A DNA stretch of 64,000 bases from a virus, in IMG/VR virus record IMGVR_UViG_3300028840_001302, positions 34,342 to 98,341 of that record; one strand, 5' to 3'. This document shows, piece after piece, positions 26,029 through 51,525 of the stretch (its first letter is position 1; each line of letters opens with the position of its first letter). Below the pieces are notes generated by a model. It made no database searches, was not told the DNA's origin, and saw nothing but the letters and a program-made list of their open reading frames with translations. The translations under genes and the position numbers were made by a program.

Positions 26029-27198
26029 TTATCCGAGTTTCTCACGGACGATTTCTTCGCGGTAGCCCTGTACGACCTTCAGAGCTTTCTTCGCCCTACC
26101 GTGAATACGTTTCTTACGGGGATGGTCGATTATATCCTCAAGTTCCTGTTCCCCCTGTTTCAGTTTTTCAACCGCCTGAAAAACGGTTTCCATTGAGGAA
26201 GAACTTGCCATTGCATCGTGGTGAAGGCTTTTGGAGTTTTCGATGATAGTATCAACCTTCATAGCATCCGGATTGCTCATCTTTTTGATGATAACCGAAA
26301 TTTTATCACGCTCCTCAATCGTGTGCCAGAAGCAATGTTCGAGAACCATGAGGTCGTCTTCGTTGACTTCAGTACGACCATTCAAAAGCGCGTGTGCCTT
26401 CAGGATGTTCGGTCTCATGTCACCATTGCGGTCCCGGTTCGCACAGGTCCGGTAAAGAACACGGTCACTGAGCCAAATGCCTTCCTCCCGAAGTTTGTCC
26501 TGAATTTTCAGGATGGTCTTTATAATATCGTCCGGAACTTCAACCTCTTTGCAGGACGCGACCAACGTATCAAGTTCCTTGAGAGTTATCGAAGCTTTAC
26601 GAGTCGAAGCGGTGTTACCGGAGAGAAGTTCAATCCGGTTTACTCTTTCGTTGATGCTCACGACTTCGAGCTTCACAACGTAACGGTCAAAGAGTGCCTC
26701 CATCTCTTCGCCTTCAAAAAATTCGTTTGAGGCACTTACCAGAGAGCGAAGCGGAACGTCTTGCGGTGTCCTGCCGTTATGAAATTTCTTTTCGTTGATA
26801 AGAGTGAGCAACGTGTTCAGGATACTCGAAGAAGCTTTCCCCGGTTCATCGAGAAACGCGAAGGTTGCTTCCGGAAGTTTGTCTTCAGTATTGCGAGAGA
26901 AGTTTTGTTCGTTCATGTATTTGTCAAGGTCAACCGGACCGAAGAGTTCTTCCGGCACAGTTGTTTTTGACATGAGCCACTCGAAGTAGGACGCGCCTTT
27001 AATGCGTCCGAAGTATTCCCGGCACATCATTGATTTGGCAGTTCCGGGTTTGCCGATAAAGAAGACGTTTTCGCCGGAGAGAAGAGCGCAAGTAAACGTA
27101 TCAACGTGGTCCTCACGTTCAAGCAATGCCGACTTCATTTCCGCTACAACCGACTGTAGCTTTTTCAATTCTTTCGTGTGTCCGTTTTTCTTTGCCAT
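26029..27198 (-). CDS. MoxR/RavA-like AAA+ ATPase
   Basis: 389 residues, ATG with AAGGAGGGCTACC upstream. Walker A GKPGTAKS (49-56), Walker B FAFLDE (113-118), sensor-1 Asn in 'LVSASNEF' (about 158), an arginine-rich sensor-2 region and the helical lid typical of MoxR proteins. C-terminal coiled coil from about 330. MoxR ATPases work as chaperones or remodellers together with VWA proteins (RavA/ViaA, CobS/CobT, NorQ/NorD). A ViaA-like VWA gene lies 3.3 kb upstream under the same type of promoter. Substrate unknown. Confidence 0.85.
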   Translation of the reverse strand: MAKKNGHTKELKKLQSVVAEMKSALLEREDHVDTFTCALLSGENVFFIGKPGTAKSMMCREYFGRIKGASYFEWLMSKTTVPEELFGPVDLDKYMNEQNFSRNTEDKLPEATFAFLDEPGKASSSILNTLLTLINEKKFHNGRTPQDVPLRSLVSASNEFFEGEEMEALFDRYVVKLEVVSINERVNRIELLSGNTASTRKASITLKELDTLVASCKEVEVPDDIIKTILKIQDKLREEGIWLSDRVLYRTCANRDRNGDMRPNILKAHALLNGRTEVNEDDLMVLEHCFWHTIEERDKISVIIKKMSNPDAMKVDTIIENSKSLHHDAMASSSSMETVFQAVEKLKQGEQELEDIIDHPRKKRIHGRAKKALKVVQGYREEIVREKLG

Positions 27199-30162: not shown

Positions 30163-30546
30163 TCATTCAATATACTTTATCTCAAAATCCTTAATACTCA
30201 TACGAGCGAATCTAAAGTAATCCATATCTTTGAAACAGGCAAGCAAAACTTCCTGCAAGACGTTATCTTGGTCCAGAACCTTGACGATGAAACCGTCACC
30301 GAAAATTCTTCCTGCCATTGCGACCCGTTCCTCCATCGAGTCATTTTGATTTTCCAGTTCGAGAATATATTTCACGTCCCGGTGATGGTATGTAGGTGCG
30401 GCAATCAAGATTCGGTCAACCTCCTCTTTCACCGCACCTTTAATTATATTGGGTCCGGGTTCGCGCCAGAGTCCTAGTCGCTGTATCATCGTCTTCGTGA
30501 AACCAGAAGGACAAACTATTTCTTTGTATTCTGAGTTGTTACCCAC
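30163..30546 (-). CDS. Hypothetical protein coupled to the VWA gene
   Basis: 127 residues from a GTG 7 nt after a GGAGG site that lies within the end of the VWA gene, so translation is probably coupled (31-bp overlap). Residues 1-50 are mixed; from about 60 the protein is helical and charged. No motif recognised. Because it shares the VWA transcript it may be part of the same system. Confidence 0.55.
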   Translation of the reverse strand: MGNNSEYKEIVCPSGFTKTMIQRLGLWREPGPNIIKGAVKEEVDRILIAAPTYHHRDVKYILELENQNDSMEERVAMAGRIFGDGFIVKVLDQDNVLQEVLLACFKDMDYFRFARMSIKDFEIKYIE

Positions 30547-31922
30547 TGAAGAACCTCCGCATCATTATTGGTCCGGGTATTCACACGAGCTTGTTTATCG
30601 CAAATCATATCGAGCGAATTTGAATTATACCCTCCGACCTGTACTCCGAGAACAGTAAAACCATTTTTTTCTTGCTTACGTTTAAATTCTTCGAGCCAAG
30701 TGTTATCAACGGGTGCATCCCCGTCAGTAATTATAATGATGTCGCAATCCTCTTCGGTCTCGCAGATTTCCGCAGCTTTGTCGAGAGGCTTTTGGAAATC
30801 CGTTCCACCTCCCATGAATGCCCGGAAAAAATTCATCAGTTTGTCAAGCGTCATTTTGCTGTCGAACTTATATTCCTTACCAACCGAAGAATCGAAAGGA
30901 ATCCAAATAACCTCACGCTTCTCTTTTTTACAAATTCTCCAAGTTGCCATCACCAGAGCTTTCGCCCATTGGTCCGGAGTTCCGGACATCGAACCAGATT
31001 GGTCTTCGAGAATAATGAACGGTCCTTTTTTCTTTTTCTCTTCCGCTCTCATTTCATATTGCAGTAATCCGCGTTCAAGATATCCGCGATAAAATTCTTT
31101 TTTCAGTCCGGGATGTTTTGCCTTCACGAGTTCCGAAGGAAGAAGTCGAGTCAAGTCATTGCCCTGTTCGACTCCGATGATTTCGTCACGGCCATGAGTA
31201 TATGATGAACGCTTGTTCGCATCCATCGTCAGGAACATCCGTCCAGCGAGTTCGAGAATTCTTTTCAGGATGTAATCGTTCTTAAGTTTTTCCGCTATGC
31301 GTTCCCTGTCACCTTCCGGAACTTCGCTCCACTCCGACATCCCGGTTCCGTAACCGAGAGCTTGCGCCAACATCTTAACTTCCTGCGCTTTTTCTTCGGC
31401 CTCATCGAGAGCGTCTTGAATCGCAAACGCGATTTGCGCTTCCGTCTCAAGTTCATCACGACCCTCTTTGTAATCTTCGAGTTCCTCTCCGGTTTCATCC
31501 GCGAGTTGTTTCATCATGTCGGAGAAATTATTTCCACCTCCTACTTCATCATCAAACTGCGGAACGGAATCGAGATGGTCGAAATTATTTTTCTGGTTTT
31601 GCGGTTGAGGTTTTTCGCTGACCGGAATTTCACCGTTCATAATTTTTTCGTTGATAGCCATTGTTGCGAAGGTAGAGTTAAGTGAATCCTTCACGGAAAA
31701 TTTTCTCATGCGTTTGAAAGAATCGTGACCGTGAATTCTCTCCGCGATTTTGCTCTTCGCTTCCGGAGGTGTGCAGTTGTAAAAGGAATCGAAAATGTTT
31801 TCTGAGAGTTCTTCAAATCCCGGTTCAATATCCGGAAGAGATTGACTCCCCTGTTGGACTTGCTCCCGAAGTTTATTTCTCCGGGACATCACATCTCGAA
31901 ATTTGCTCTTCGTTTCTAGCAT
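30516..31922 (-). CDS. ViaA-like VWA domain protein
   Basis: 468 residues. ATG 31922 (site AAGGAGGGCTACC) is used; the longer frame would start inside the promoter. The N-terminal half is helical. 'AGRMFLTMDANKRSSYTHGRDEIIG...DLTRLLPSEL' followed by 'GPFIILEDQSGSMSG' (MIDAS DxSGS, about 307-314), 'WAKALVMATWRICKKEKREVIWIPF', a GGGTDF threonine loop and 'DIIIITDGDA' match the ViaA/CoxE-type VWA family closely. In E. coli ViaA partners RavA, a MoxR ATPase; here the MoxR protein at 26029 is the natural partner. The metal-binding residues are intact. Confidence 0.8.
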   Translation of the reverse strand: MLETKSKFRDVMSRRNKLREQVQQGSQSLPDIEPGFEELSENIFDSFYNCTPPEAKSKIAERIHGHDSFKRMRKFSVKDSLNSTFATMAINEKIMNGEIPVSEKPQPQNQKNNFDHLDSVPQFDDEVGGGNNFSDMMKQLADETGEELEDYKEGRDELETEAQIAFAIQDALDEAEEKAQEVKMLAQALGYGTGMSEWSEVPEGDRERIAEKLKNDYILKRILELAGRMFLTMDANKRSSYTHGRDEIIGVEQGNDLTRLLPSELVKAKHPGLKKEFYRGYLERGLLQYEMRAEEKKKKGPFIILEDQSGSMSGTPDQWAKALVMATWRICKKEKREVIWIPFDSSVGKEYKFDSKMTLDKLMNFFRAFMGGGTDFQKPLDKAAEICETEEDCDIIIITDGDAPVDNTWLEEFKRKQEKNGFTVLGVQVGGYNSNSLDMICDKQARVNTRTNNDAEVLQWVTTQNTKK

Positions 31923-31967
31923 TAAGGTAGCCCTCCTTTTTTTGCTAAAGTGGTTCATTTGATACAT

Positions 31968-32545: not shown

Positions 32546-35341
32546 CTAGTGTATCCAGTGTTCCCCAATACTCCACTCGATAAGAAAGTCAACCTTCTTA
32601 AACTTTCTATTTTGAGCAAAGCGACTTGGGGAAGGAACATTTTTCCATTCGAGAATCCGGGTTGCGTTCCGGAGAATCTTTTTCTTTTTCTTCTTCGGTA
32701 TATCAATGGTTACATCATCGTGGACCTGAAGAATGATACGGGCCTTCGGATATTTTTTCAAGTGATTGTTGAGTTCGATGATGCGATAGTTCATCAGGTC
32801 GGCAGCAAAAGATTGAATCGGAAAATTATAAACCTGACGGTCAACGTGAGCGACCAGCATATTAATCCAACGCTTACTCGAACCCGCTCCCGTGCCTCTT
32901 ATATTTCTTTCAACGAAGGAATAAAATTTATACGCGAGACCTACGTTTCTTCTCCTGCCGAAAAAGTTTTCAACGTAACCTTGCTTTCTTGCAACCGCAA
33001 CTCCTTCGTCCCACCATTTTTTTATTCGCGTGTATTTTTTATTGAAGTAAAGATGCTCTCGCCGTTTCGCTTCCTCATAATCAACTCCGGTTTTCTCCAT
33101 CATGGTCTTTACGCCGCCGCCATAGTTCAAAGAGAATCCGGAAGTTTTGGAATCATATCGTTGGAGGGGTGAAACATCTTCGGGCTTGACATCGAAAAAC
33201 AGACTCGCATTCTGAGTGTGCATGTCAAGACCTTTTGAGAATTCCCGCAGACCATTCTGGTCCCCGGAGAGCCACATCATAATACGAAGTTCGAGAGCTT
33301 TATAGTCGAGACTGAGAATACAATTACCATCACGATAAGGTATGAAGATTTCGCCGTAAGAGAGGAGGCCGCTGGTATCCGGCTTACTTCCCTTCTTCGC
33401 CTTTCCCTCTTTGATTTTTTTCTTATGCGCTTTACGGACACGCTTCCAATTTTCCGGGAAGAGTTTTTTCGCCATCTTCAATGCGCGTCCTGTAATTTCG
33501 GGCATACTCCCGGCACGTCTCACGTTCTGAAGATTAATGCCACGAGAAGAAAGTCTCCCGGTTTTAGTAAAGTCGATTTGATAAGACGTGTGAGCATACC
33601 CATACTTATCTATGAATCCGAGATATCCTTCCGACTTCCCACCTGTCTCAAGAGAGCCAAGCATATTTGTCACGATGGATTTGCACTTACCTATATTTAA
33701 AATGTACTTCGCAATCTCCCGGTCTTTCTTCGGGACCGATTTATCTTCCGTGATTTTTTCGAGAACATAACTCGAAGTGGAATCATCTCCCTTATCCGTG
33801 AGTTTGAAAGAAGGGAGTTGCAGACGTTCAAACAATAAATTCTTTTTCTTCGGTCCGGAACCGATTTTAAATTCATCGACATCAAAACCTTTACACTTCG
33901 GGTGTTTGCGTATTGCTTTTCGCAGAGCTTTATCGAGCATCTCAACCTGAGTCTCGTAAACCATTGCTATATTTTTCATACGCTCAACATCTATCTTCAC
34001 TCCACGGAATTCAACATCTTCAAAAACATCACGCATCGGAAGCTGAATATCATACATGATGCGTTTCATATTTTCATCGGAGTCAATAATCGGCCTCTGT
34101 TTTGCTTCGAGTTGCCATGTCACATCCGCATCGACACATTGATAAAGCCAGAGCCAATAGTTCGGGATATCCGCGAACTTCCTATCCTTCTTATCATCAC
34201 GGGGAATATAGTCGTAATTTTTTTCATCGTATTTACCGTAACGGATACCGTGCCATTGACAGAGATAATTTAAATTGGAGGGACGGTTTTCATCCTGCAC
34301 TCTGGAAGCGGTCATGCTGTCCCAAACAATATTCGGTTTTATTTTTTTACGCCGGAGATTCAGGTTATCGAACTTAACATTCTGTCCGGCGAATTTATTT
34401 TTTGGGTTGTTGAAAAACTTCCGGAGGATACTGAGGACTTGTTTCTCTTCCTTCGGGCTATTCCAAAATTCATAATACTCAACTTCCTTATCGAGTACGA
34501 GTCCTTCAGTCTCCATCGTCCGATTGATTTTACGAAACCCGCTTTTCTTAAATTTCTTAACTTTAATTTCGGAAGGACAAATCCTTCTCGAAGATTTAAG
34601 CGGGATAACAAAGGCACGATGTTTTGCAGGAGAAAGGCCGATACAAAGTATCTCGTCTTTCCAATGCTTAAGTCCCGTGGTCTCGATATCCACCGCAATC
34701 AAATTGGACTTCTCGCATTCCTTTACCGCCGCCTTTACTTTTTCAATCGTATCGCAGATAACATACTTACCCTGCTCAAAAAACTTTTCGTACTTCACTC
34801 GCTTCGGTTTGAAATTGTTTTTTACTACACGAGCGACTTCATTGAAGTCCATGATGGTATCGTAAACACGAGACCATTTGGTAAGTAACTGCGCTCCATC
34901 GTAAGTAAGAATAGTAGGAACTTTGATACGCTGATGGAATTGACCTACGTTCCACCATCCGCGCATCGTATCGAAAGAGCTTGTTTTGTTAAGAACTTCG
35001 GCAATAGTTTGTCCGAGAAGAATAACCAACTTTGGTTTCAGCTTTTTAATTCGTTCAAAGAAATTTTCTATATACGGCTCAGTATCTTTCTTCGGTGGTT
35101 TCTTAACCCAATGAGGCATCAGACGTATGAACTCAAAAGGCACATCTTTTAAATCGGAACGCCGCTTGCAATATTCGAGAGCCAACCGTTCCGCAGTTCG
35201 ATTGACCAGAGCGGGAGAAGTTTTTTCGGTCTCATGTTTGCCGGGGGATAATTCGACTACAACTATCCCGGAACGATTGACCTTAACCTTCTTAACTTTC
35301 CGCTTACCTTTTTTTGATTTTTTTCCTTTTACTTTCGACAT
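32546..35341 (-). CDS. Family A DNA polymerase with N-terminal UDG-like domain
   Basis: 931 residues; start ATG 35341 lies within the end of the nuclease gene. A Lys-rich first 22 residues leads into a domain (about 25-165) with 'LKPKLVILLGQTIAEVLN' and 'MRGWW' resembling family 4 uracil-DNA glycosylase, as known for the SPO1-type polymerases. It lacks GEAPG and iron-sulphur cysteines, so it is probably inactive. A 3'-5' exonuclease follows (D218/E220 in AVDIETTGL; 'FAGQNVKFDNL'). The polymerase has motif A around D679 (SLDYKALELR), motif B R728...K732...Y740 and motif C H874-D875-D876. It is the replicative polymerase; both activities look intact. Confidence 0.92.
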   Translation of the reverse strand: MSKVKGKKSKKGKRKVKKVKVNRSGIVVVELSPGKHETEKTSPALVNRTAERLALEYCKRRSDLKDVPFEFIRLMPHWVKKPPKKDTEPYIENFFERIKKLKPKLVILLGQTIAEVLNKTSSFDTMRGWWNVGQFHQRIKVPTILTYDGAQLLTKWSRVYDTIMDFNEVARVVKNNFKPKRVKYEKFFEQGKYVICDTIEKVKAAVKECEKSNLIAVDIETTGLKHWKDEILCIGLSPAKHRAFVIPLKSSRRICPSEIKVKKFKKSGFRKINRTMETEGLVLDKEVEYYEFWNSPKEEKQVLSILRKFFNNPKNKFAGQNVKFDNLNLRRKKIKPNIVWDSMTASRVQDENRPSNLNYLCQWHGIRYGKYDEKNYDYIPRDDKKDRKFADIPNYWLWLYQCVDADVTWQLEAKQRPIIDSDENMKRIMYDIQLPMRDVFEDVEFRGVKIDVERMKNIAMVYETQVEMLDKALRKAIRKHPKCKGFDVDEFKIGSGPKKKNLLFERLQLPSFKLTDKGDDSTSSYVLEKITEDKSVPKKDREIAKYILNIGKCKSIVTNMLGSLETGGKSEGYLGFIDKYGYAHTSYQIDFTKTGRLSSRGINLQNVRRAGSMPEITGRALKMAKKLFPENWKRVRKAHKKKIKEGKAKKGSKPDTSGLLSYGEIFIPYRDGNCILSLDYKALELRIMMWLSGDQNGLREFSKGLDMHTQNASLFFDVKPEDVSPLQRYDSKTSGFSLNYGGGVKTMMEKTGVDYEEAKRREHLYFNKKYTRIKKWWDEGVAVARKQGYVENFFGRRRNVGLAYKFYSFVERNIRGTGAGSSKRWINMLVAHVDRQVYNFPIQSFAADLMNYRIIELNNHLKKYPKARIILQVHDDVTIDIPKKKKKKILRNATRILEWKNVPSPSRFAQNRKFKKVDFLIEWSIGEHWIH

Positions 35342-44433: not shown

Positions 44434-44518
44434 GTCCAAAACTCCTTTCGTTGAAAAGAAAATAGGTGTTATGTTTTTTTAGAGGGAAGCTGAAGTGCTT
44501 ACCTCCATGTCCGTCTTG

Positions 44519-44589
44519 CTACCCTGCTAGGACTCGAACCTAGAATGGAAGGTCCAAAACCTTCTGTGTTACCATTACACCACAGGGTA
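44519..44589 (-). tRNA. tRNA-Gln (anticodon TTG)
   Basis: Cloverleaf on the - strand: acceptor TACCCTG/CAGGGTA, anticodon stem GAAGG/CCTTC around loop TTTTGGA (anticodon TTG at positions 34-36), T-arm CTAGG-TTCGAGT-CCTAG, discriminator G73 as expected for glutamine. CCA is not encoded. It follows the tmRNA by 4 bp, so the two are probably processed from one precursor. Short D-arm but standard. Confidence 0.9.
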
Positions 44590-44593
44590 ATTG

Positions 44594-44947
44594 TGGAGGT
44601 GCGGGGAATCGAACCCCGGTCCTAGCTTAACTTCCGTCCCAACGGTCTTACAGCTTTATCCCGTGATTGCCTGTGGCTTAAGCTCATCGGGCAAGCTCCG
44701 TCCCGTCTTTCCGGAATGCCAACACATTTTAAACGGGTGTGCGCCGTTCCCGTGATTTCCGGGAGCCATCCGATATTTGCCCGGAGGTCCATCTATCGGA
44801 GTCAATAGGTCCGGGTGCGGCTACGCCGCAAGTTTTACAGGCTGTTTGGCATGTAAAGGGTTATAGTCGGATTTTTAAACGGAGCCATCCGACCAACTCC
44901 GTGCTGAGTTGAAAGTTCCGTTACCTAGTCGAAACCAGTTCACCCCC
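44594..44947 (-). ncRNA. ssrA: Transfer-messenger RNA (tmRNA)
   Basis: One-piece tmRNA, about 354 nt on the - strand. The 5' end GGGGGTGAACTGGTTTCGAC and the 3' end with T-arm (CCGGGGTTCGATTCCCCGCACCTCC) form the tRNA-like domain: acceptor GGGGGTG/CACCTCC with a G3-U70 wobble, the alanyl-tRNA synthetase determinant, and discriminator A; CCA is not encoded. The tag reading frame (44821-44850) reads AKQPVKLAA then TAG, with the stop in the loop of a GCGGC/GCCGC hairpin as is usual for helix 5. GC-rich pseudoknot arms follow. Role: rescue of stalled ribosomes and tagging of proteins with a C-terminal degradation signal. Confidence 0.95.
44821..44850 (-). other. tmRNA tag-peptide reading frame
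   Basis: Resume codon GCC (44850-44848), codons for AKQPVKLAA, stop TAG (44823-44821). With the alanine added from the tRNA-like end the full tag is A-AKQPVKLAA. The ending LAA is the form recognised by ClpXP-type proteases. The resume point is inferred from the LAA-stop and the preceding ACAT context. Confidence 0.85.
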
Positions 44948-44969
44948 AAATTTTGAAAGAGCTTAGTAG

Positions 44970-45043
44970 TAGCAGGGGAGGGATTTGAACCCCCGATGTC
45001 TTGCTTATGAGGCAAGTGAGTTACCAGACTACTCTACCCTGCG
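44970..45043 (-). tRNA. tRNA with anticodon CAT (Met, or Ile if lysidine-modified)
   Basis: - strand cloverleaf: acceptor CGCAGGG against CCCTGCT, anticodon stem CTTGC/GCAAG around loop CTCATAA (CAT), T-arm GGGGG-TTCAAAT-CCCTC with one G-U, discriminator A. The first pair C1-U72 is a mismatch. The anticodon stem lacks the three G-C pairs of initiator tRNA, so an elongator-type tRNA-Met or a tRNA-Ile2 is likely. CCA is not encoded. Confidence 0.85.
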
Positions 45044-45049
45044 TGATTA

Positions 45050-45088
45050 TAAAAAAGAAGCCGGGGAGATGGGTCACAACTCCCCGAC
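45050..45088 (-). terminator. Terminator of the SSB gene
   Basis: On the - strand CGGGGAG (45086-45080), 11-nt loop, CTCCCCG (45068-45062), then CTTCTTTTTT. It separates the SSB gene from the tRNA-CAT gene that starts 7 bp later. Confidence 0.75.
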
Positions 45089-45097
45089 TACTCGTGA

Positions 45098-45180
45098 CCC
45101 TTAATCTGAGAGGGGGGTTAGATTAAGGGCAGACTTCGCATTACCTTACTTGAGGAACCCCCGGTCAGTCAAGCAAGGGG
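45098..45180 (-). other. Two stable hairpins in the 3' region of the SSB gene
   Basis: CCCTTAATCT/AGATTAAGGG (45098-45107 with 45120-45129) is a perfect 10-bp stem. Further upstream CCTTGCTTGA (45179-45170 on the - strand) can pair with TCAAGTAAGG with one G-U. Together with the terminator they make a three-hairpin 3' end. They may protect the SSB messenger or guide processing of the tRNA/tmRNA precursor. Confidence 0.5.
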
Positions 45181-45237
45181 AAATTTTTTGTTGTGCATGT
45201 ATTTTACAAAGAGCAAAGCAAGAGTCAAGAGGGAAAA

Positions 45238-46656
45238 TTATTTTTTCTTCTTTTTCCCTTTACCCTTACCTTTCGCTTTTCCCTTAGTCTTCGTGTCTTT
45301 CTTACCTTTACCTTTGGCTTTGCCTTTGGTCTCGGTCTTCTTTTTGCTCTTCGTTTCTTTTTTCGATTTGGACTTGGACTTGCCTTTCGCCTTCCCCTTT
45401 TTACCTTTACCTTTCTTCGGGGACTTGTCTAGGAATTCGTCTTCCTCATCATCATCGTCCTCTTCGTCTTCTTCGTCTTCATCGTCTTCGTCTTCTTCAT
45501 CATCGTCCTCATCGTCCTCATCGTCTTCGTCCTCATCGTCTTCATCATCATCGTCCTCCGAGTCTTCATCATCGTCCTCTTCATCATCATCGTCTTCGGA
45601 GTCCTCATCGTCTTCATCATCGTCTTCGTCTTCATCGTCCTCTTCGTCTTCATCGTCCTCCGAATCCTCATCATCATCGTCTTCATCATCATCGTCTTCG
45701 TCTTCGGAGTCCTCATCATCATCGTCTTCATCATCGTCTTCCGAATCCTCATCATCGTCTTCGTCTTCGGAATCATCATCGTCCTCATCATCGTCTTCAT
45801 CGTCTTCGAGTTCTTCGTCTTCGAGTTCCTCTTCCGGTTCTTCGCCTTCTTCTTCAGCGTCCCACTCTTCACCTTCGAGAGCGAGTTGCGATTGTTCGTA
45901 AGACGGGATGGCAAAGATTTCCGAGAAATCGAAAAGCTGGTCGATGATAGTCTTGGCCTTCTTTATGGCAGAAGGTTTCGCGTCCGGGACAACGGTGTAC
46001 TTCGTGTTGATTTTCATTTTCGGCACATTCTTATTAATAGTAAGAGTGCGGCCTTTCTTCATATCTGTGATGTCGCCGTAGCCTTTCTTCGGGTCGATGA
46101 AAGACATCACACCGTCCCACACTTGGAAACCCGTGGACATAACCTGTACGCCTGACTCCGGGTTATCCATGTCGAGTACGTTAAAGTAAATCTTCGCTTT
46201 CTTACGATGGTCCTTGACCTCTTCCTTGAGAGCTTTGATTTTCCCGGCGTTCTTCTTCGGGTTCTTCGCGGTGAGCTTCTTAATTTTTTCCCGCTTCTCT
46301 TCGACCATCTCGCAGATTGCACAGGCAACTTTATGGTCGGTAGCATCGGCGGGACACATGATACTTCTCTGTCCGTCCGGACCTACATTATAATGATAGG
46401 CCGTGGACATGAAAAAGTCTTCGCTACCAGCGGGGGGAGGAAGAATGCGGATACGGTTATCACCGGGAGAAAGTTGCATGAACGGGAGGTCTCCCCCGCC
46501 GAACTTCGACTTCGCTTCCTGATGCTTCTTACGAGCGCGGTCCATGTTGGCCTTACCCGCGCCTTTGGGTTTCCCTTTTCCTTTCTTCTTCTTTGAAGAC
46601 TTCTCTTCCTTTTTCTTACCCTTCTTTTTCGTGTCTTTCTTTTTCGCTTTCGCCAT
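45238..46656 (-). CDS. gp32-like single-stranded DNA-binding protein with polyampholytic tail
   Basis: 472 residues, ATG with AAAGGAGGAATGTTCC upstream. The first 35 residues are Lys-rich. 'FMQLSPGDNRIRILPPPAG' begins the core; H88/C101/C112/C115 reproduce the H-C-C-C zinc site of T4 gp32 (spacing 12, 10, 2 against 12, 9, 2). The core ends near 265. Then about 150 residues are almost exclusively Asp/Glu with Ser, and the last 50 are Lys/Gly-rich. An acidic C-terminus is normal for SSB proteins (partner binding), but this length and the appended basic end are extreme. Coding DNA is a GAT/GAC/GAA triplet repeat. Confidence 0.8.
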   Translation of the reverse strand: MAKAKKKDTKKKGKKKEEKSSKKKKGKGKPKGAGKANMDRARKKHQEAKSKFGGGDLPFMQLSPGDNRIRILPPPAGSEDFFMSTAYHYNVGPDGQRSIMCPADATDHKVACAICEMVEEKREKIKKLTAKNPKKNAGKIKALKEEVKDHRKKAKIYFNVLDMDNPESGVQVMSTGFQVWDGVMSFIDPKKGYGDITDMKKGRTLTINKNVPKMKINTKYTVVPDAKPSAIKKAKTIIDQLFDFSEIFAIPSYEQSQLALEGEEWDAEEEGEEPEEELEDEELEDDEDDDEDDDDSEDEDDDEDSEDDDEDDDDEDSEDEDDDDEDDDDEDSEDDEDEEDDEDEDDDEDDEDSEDDDDEEDDDEDSEDDDDEDDEDEDDEDDEDDDEEDEDDEDEEDEEDDDDEEDEFLDKSPKKGKGKKGKAKGKSKSKSKKETKSKKKTETKGKAKGKGKKDTKTKGKAKGKGKGKKKKK

Positions 46657-50907: not shown

Positions 50908-51525
50908 ATGAATAGGACGGATAAGTTGATTCAGGAAAACATGGGAGCGATTTGGGAAGCTACCGAAGGATGGACGAACTCGCTCCCGGAAACACCTTCG
51001 TTCAGCAGGGAGGATTTATTTCAGGAAGGGGTGCTTGCCGTAGTAAAGGCCATCCGCTATTACAAAAAGAAGATGGGTAAAGTTACCACGTTCATCTTCA
51101 CGGTTGTTAGCCGACATCTTTCAGAACACGTTTACCCTAAACAGAAAAAGAAACGTGAACACGCGAAGGAACATTCCACGGAACATCTCGGTTCTTACGA
51201 ACAGAAAAATTATATCCCTTCACAAACTCCGGATGTTATATCGAGAGTAAACGGTAGAGAGATGATAGCCGCGTTGGAGCGGGGATTGGATACGGATGAG
51301 ATGTTCGCTTTGCAATGCTACGTTAATCCTCCCTCCGATTTGTGGAGGTTGGCACGGCGCAGGAAATTGAAGTGCATGAAAAAACAAAACAAAAAATTAC
51401 GAAAGGTTAGGATTACTAACGAAGATGTGATAGTATTTCTGACCGACATTGGGGGAGAGGCATGGGCAAAATACATCGTCCGAGAGATGAAGAGGAAAGT
51501 AAACGCCATAGCGAAGAAGTATTAA
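50908..51525 (+). CDS. Sigma70-family-like transcription factor
   Basis: 205 residues, ATG with AGGAGGGCATA upstream, 9 bp after the primase gene. 'FSREDLFQEGVLAVVKAIRYYKKKMGKVTTFIFTVVSRHLSEHV' matches region 2 of sigma factors ('DL.QEG..GL..A...F....G..F.T....I...L'). A region 4-like helix pair is not obvious; the C-terminal half is basic and helical. It may redirect host RNA polymerase to phage genes. An excisionase-like regulator is encoded 1.1 kb downstream. Confidence 0.65.
   Translation: MNRTDKLIQENMGAIWEATEGWTNSLPETPSFSREDLFQEGVLAVVKAIRYYKKKMGKVTTFIFTVVSRHLSEHVYPKQKKKREHAKEHSTEHLGSYEQKNYIPSQTPDVISRVNGREMIAALERGLDTDEMFALQCYVNPPSDLWRLARRRKLKCMKKQNKKLRKVRITNEDVIVFLTDIGGEAWAKYIVREMKRKVNAIAKKY

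Follow-up and report, generated by a model that had tools for sequence, protein, structure and literature searches.

A complete one-piece tmRNA gene with a short, basic tag in the tRNA array of a tailed phage

A complete standard-form (one-piece) transfer-messenger RNA (tmRNA, ssrA) gene with the tag AKQPVKLAA was identified in IMG/VR virus record IMGVR_UViG_3300028840_001302, a tailed phage contig of 98,341 bases, within the 64,000-nt stretch analysed here (the window; positions 34,342 to 98,341 of the record). The gene lies inside the phage genome rather than in a host flank, between two tRNA genes on the same strand. We consider it a functional phage ssrA gene which would borrow host SmpB, alanyl-tRNA synthetase (AlaRS) and protease for ribosome recycling, with a probability of roughly three in four.

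Identification and structure of the tmRNA gene

ARAGORN reported a tmRNA with the tag AKQPVKLAA* on the minus strand at 44593–44947, and Infernal aligned the full RF00023 model (positions 1–374) to 44591–44947 of the same strand with a score of 84.2 bits (E = 3.5e-31), against a curated cut-off of 47 bits. The match is far above chance and the gene is real. An initial annotation, which had named these two programs as checks and the lack of a covariance hit as grounds for refutation, described a complete one-piece tmRNA with a G3-U70 pair and a T-arm at 44594–44947; both programs and the helices described below bear this out. Its coordinates were exact to the discriminator base A73, while the strand, which it left unstated, is minus.

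The acceptor stem (GGGGGUG/CACCUCC) combines G3-U70 with six Watson-Crick pairs, the T-arm is paired at all five positions, and helix H2 is built from CUAG/CUAG, AACUUUC/GGAAGUU, AAC/GUU and CAGC/GCUG. Helix H5 (UGCGGC-GUA-GCCGCA) carries the UAG stop at its loop. What had been noted as pseudoknot-like GC arms resolved into three clear pseudoknots (PK1 to PK3) and a weaker fourth (Table 1), with an overall H-type pseudoknot potential above that of ~98% of dinucleotide shuffles. The 3′ end of the tmRNA reads A-C-A-A, and an encoded CCA is absent from the tmRNA and both flanking tRNAs. The gene shows the sequence and structural features of a standard-form tmRNA: covariance match, G3-U70 with T-arm, a tag frame positioned by A(-4) and closed by the H5 stop, and PK1–PK4.

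Table 1. Features of the tmRNA locus (window coordinates)
Feature	Position	Strand	Details and basis
Standard-form (one-piece) tmRNA (ssrA) gene, complete	44593..44947	-	ARAGORN; RF00023; helices
PK1, 5+7 bp	44866..44901	-	CGGAG/CUCCG + GUCGGAU/AUCCGAC, Watson-Crick throughout
Tag frame, AKQPVKLAA*	44821..44850 (nt 98-127 of gene)	-	GCC AAA CAG CCU GUA AAA CUU GCG GCG UAG; ARAGORN; A(-4), U(-5)
PK2, 6+6 bp	44770..44815	-	CCCGGA/UCCGGG + CCGAUA/UAUCGG
PK3 region, 5+4 bp inside 6-bp helix	44711..44762	-	Outer CCGGAA/UUCCGG; inner AACGG/CCGUU + CACA/UGUG
PK4, 4+6 bp	44680..44705	-	CGGG/CCCG + GAGCUU/GAGCUU with two G-U pairs; weakest of the four
tRNA-Gln(UUG)	44518..44589	-	ARAGORN; Rfam match
tRNA-Met(CAU), initiator-like	44969..45043	-	ARAGORN; Rfam match
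Structured leader or 3′ untranslated region, three strong hairpins	45051..45178	-	Fold z -4.35; 0/200 shuffles as stable
Promoter-like site	45201..45228	-	TTGACT-16-TAAAAT, 10/12; promoter scan

Tag sequence and resume frame

The tag is preceded by UUUACAU, so that, counted from the resume codon GCC, position -4 is A and position -5 is U. In Escherichia coli it is A86, at -4, that sets the frame (PMC2481249), and an A at this position was present in all 35 one-piece viral tmRNAs compared, partly because ARAGORN scores the motif. Mapped in this way, the resume frame ends in LAA-UAG, which disposes of a frame-shifted tag without LAA, the other outcome by which the initial annotation could have failed. 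The alternative +1 frame (AUG, giving MPNSL*) was rejected on reading the sequence, as its -4 position is not A and its end is not LAA. PK1 lies 15 nt from the resume codon versus 11 nt in E. coli, a distance reported not to be critical (PMC2481249).

With nine residues, a charge of +2, proline at position 4 and no Asn, Asp or Glu, AKQPVKLAA stands at the short, basic edge of viral tags but is not alone there. In a set of 32 different viral tags from one-piece tmRNAs, AKQPVKLAA among them, median length was 14 and charge ranged from -8 to +4; four were at +2 or more, three had nine residues, and LAA was the commonest ending (15/32). Other short or basic phage tags include ANTPVRMAA and GNKNRVRAFGFKSRELALAA. 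Searched as degenerate DNA, the exact tag had no match in 84,980 species genomes (GTDB), nor in the IMG/VR contigs searched, its own record excepted. Separately, five viral one-piece tmRNAs (L110, L115, L087, L083 and L043) carry long tags starting with Gly (20–29 residues, e.g. GKIKNVVNAIFGRGSRNESFVGGELALAA) and possibly represent a distinct group of phage tmRNAs.

The tRNA array

The tRNA genes between which the initial annotation had correctly placed the tmRNA are tRNA-Met(CAU), at a distance of 21 nt, and tRNA-Gln(UUG), at 3 nt. Given two same-strand tRNAs in such proximity, the three genes probably form one processed array. The tRNA-Met is initiator-like in its C1xU72 mismatch and A11-U24 pair (positions assigned by eye), while the three G-C pairs of initiators are missing from its anticodon stem (CUUGC/GCAAG). 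In E. coli it best matches (72%) a tRNA-Met gene flanked by argG and rimP, which we take to be the initiator gene metY. In 14 genes of the phage CAA was used more than CAG (180 vs 117), which fits a tRNA-Gln reading with UUG.

Frequency and relatives of phage tmRNAs

In a published survey, 402 of 18,146 phage genomes (2.3%) carried a tmRNA (PMC9004378). Scanning IMG/VR with the tmRNA 5′ consensus returned at least 120 stretches, some of which may be prophage or host sequence, and at least 82 of these had a tmRNA by ARAGORN (34 one-piece, 48 permuted). The initial statement that phage tmRNAs are rare was therefore too strong; they recur across several lineages, with examples in the mycobacteriophage C1 subcluster, such as Pinkcreek (PMC9476963), and in Stenotrophomonas phage Marzo (PMC8928761). 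Among the IMG/VR matches listed, 16 of 82 viral tmRNAs had a same-strand tRNA within 300 nt.

The present gene shares with other phage tmRNAs the presence of a complete ssrA in a phage, often together with tRNAs, but differs in the very short array (two tRNAs) and in that no close sequence relative was found. It resembles bacterial standard-form tmRNA (ssrA, RF00023) in its full-length match, its domains and its LAA-ending tag, whereas it differs in its low score (84 bits, compared with 192 for a Fibrobacterota tmRNA), in a tag found nowhere else searched and in a carrier without detected SmpB. In Methylophilales phage Melnitz, a tmRNA is likewise preceded by a structured RNA element, a glutamine riboswitch (PMC9004378); that tmRNA is two-piece (permuted), however, whereas the one described here is one-piece and follows a leader matching no Rfam riboswitch. 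The tmRNA of phage DS6A, also phage-encoded, is described as tag-less in a work cited in PMC11915505, in contrast to the tag frame present here.

Protein searches of IMG/VR for sister phages, using the DNA-binding protein, helicase and UvsX, turned up no more than one relative, at 26%, and this one had no tmRNA. Alignment of the array by blastn to 50,697 phage records returned essentially tRNA-Met matches, with no tmRNA match among the 20 records listed. The pattern of the tmRNA 5′ end had one cellular match, in a Fibrobacterota metagenome-assembled genome (tag ANDYSYAMAA), which was rejected as a pointer to the host, its tmRNA being only 66% identical overall. Viral stretch L125 was similarly dismissed as a close relative: its first 24 nt are in common, but its tmRNA is permuted.

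Proposed function and alternative explanations

Ribosome recycling is most likely the function, as the most economical one; this supports, at the level of what we infer, the earlier idea that the phage copy keeps ribosomes available. The acceptor stem, G3-U70, T-arm, H2, PK1–PK4, A(-4) and H5 stop are all intact. In the proposed sequence of events, the tRNA(iMet-like)-tmRNA-tRNA-Gln array would be transcribed as a single RNA, which host tRNA-processing enzymes would cut into its parts; CCA would be added to these, since none is encoded. Host AlaRS would charge the tmRNA with alanine via G3-U70, and host SmpB, EF-Tu and S1 would bind it and allow it to enter ribosomes that have stalled on broken mRNA in the course of infection. 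Translation would resume at GCC, append (A)AKQPVKLAA and terminate at UAG, freeing the ribosome, and host ClpXP would be likely to accept the tagged protein as a substrate on account of its LAA end. Host partners would have to serve because neither SmpB nor ClpP was detected in the 98-kb contig, which may be incomplete. The phage would gain rescue RNA together with extra initiator-like and Gln tRNA at a time when cleavage of mRNA and tRNA overloads host capacity. The literature searched contained no experimental test of the benefit of a tag-bearing phage tmRNA to its phage.

Several observations weigh against a working gene. The sequence is diverged, scoring 84 bits where two other one-piece tmRNAs, scored likewise, reached 145 and 192, and its best identity to any tmRNA compared was ~69% (72.6% over a shorter alignment). 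The sister-phage searches also turned up no relative with this array that could show covariation or purifying selection. In addition, a terminator-like hairpin stands ahead of the array, and the promoter scan found no promoter between this hairpin and tRNA-Met.

The lack of a selection signal in a diverged orphan sequence would suit a captured host gene carried without selected function, or the remnant of an attachment site, tmRNA genes being common integration sites (PMC3029335). Yet the gene sits in a tRNA array within a block of replication genes and has kept exactly those features that function requires; it is a whole gene rather than a 3′ tmRNA fragment beside an integrase, and no match to the tyrosine integrase family PF00589 was found in the 98-kb, possibly incomplete, contig. 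We therefore regard a passenger or remnant as improbable. Still further from what we would expect is an interfering decoy, an RNA occupying SmpB or stalled ribosomes and so inhibiting the host tmRNA, for which Mao et al. 2009 is cited in PMC11915505: such a role would need neither the complete tag frame nor the stop hairpin and pseudoknots seen here.

The tag itself invites another explanation, in which the phage tmRNA competes with that of the host and its basic tag, without the N/D-rich head read by adaptors (SspB in E. coli), leads to slower decay, a different protease or sparing of the tagged proteins. The charge, length, Pro4, lack of Asn, Asp and Glu, and absence of the exact tag from the genomes and IMG/VR contigs searched all agree with this. 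However, the tag retains its C-terminal LAA, which in E. coli is the core signal for ClpX. An altered proteolytic fate, also suggested by the initial annotation, is speculative because similarly short or basic tags exist in other phages, and drift would suffice for the change of tag, as E. coli tmRNA tolerates tag changes and its coding part past the resume codon is loosely constrained (PMC2481249). On balance, we consider tag reprogramming unlikely. The gene belongs to a well-known kind, and only its tag sequence and the ornate upstream RNA are unusual; it adds one more clear one-piece phage tmRNA, with a short basic tag and beside an initiator-like tRNA, and extends a known pattern.

Structured element upstream of the array

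The leader stretch lies between the gene at 45238–46656 and tRNA-Met. Two of its hairpin loops, GGGGGUU (45162–45156) and AACCCCC (45119–45113), form a 7-nt complement with a predicted loop-loop duplex of -12.9 kcal/mol, reached by 0.45% of loop shuffles, the pairing having been picked after inspection. The last stem (AGUCGGGGAG/CUCCCCGGCU) is followed by UCUUUUUU and ends 7 nt ahead of tRNA-Met; this terminator-like stem is missing from the strict terminator scan because its loop exceeds 8 nt. GGGUCAC (45100–45094) can also pair with GUGACCC (45077–45071) in the terminator loop.

Searching the leader against Rfam gave no fitting family and no riboswitch match; LhrC was rejected at 25 bits against a cut-off of 110. 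The promoter-like site is suggestive only, with one such match in the region versus 0.7 expected by shuffling. A TATAAT three bases ahead of tRNA-Met was discarded as a promoter, as transcription would then start inside the tRNA. The leader may be a small RNA or an attenuator, or merely the 3′ end of the upstream gene. A more far-reaching arrangement, in which promoter, two kissing-loop hairpins and terminator gate the array, and readthrough switches on the initiator-like tRNA and a tmRNA whose basic tag is reprogrammed at a defined stage of infection as a translation-takeover switch and new RNA class, seems quite unlikely. Should the upstream structured RNA be conserved in relatives, it could matter more than the tmRNA.

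Phage surroundings

Genes of the contig include those for family A DNA polymerase, SbcC, SbcD, exonuclease, a UvsX-like recombinase, primase-helicase and helicase. Ribonucleotide reductase, thymidylate synthase, portal, major head protein, DNA methyltransferases and tape-measure protein are also encoded, and contig proteins had only distant matches to known phages. The protein at 50908–51525 (plus strand) has a match to sigma-70 region 2 barely over the cut-off and is perhaps a phage sigma factor; given this candidate, host-type promoter scans may overlook phage promoters. An ATPase (phrog_19600) and a vWA-like protein are encoded a few genes apart on the minus strand (26029–27198 and 30516–31967), the ATPase being related to those of archaeal viruses and a Moorella phage. 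At L003:5125–12312, two adjacent large open reading frames (529 and 1862 residues), both with DNA methyltransferase-family matches, lie between portal and head genes.
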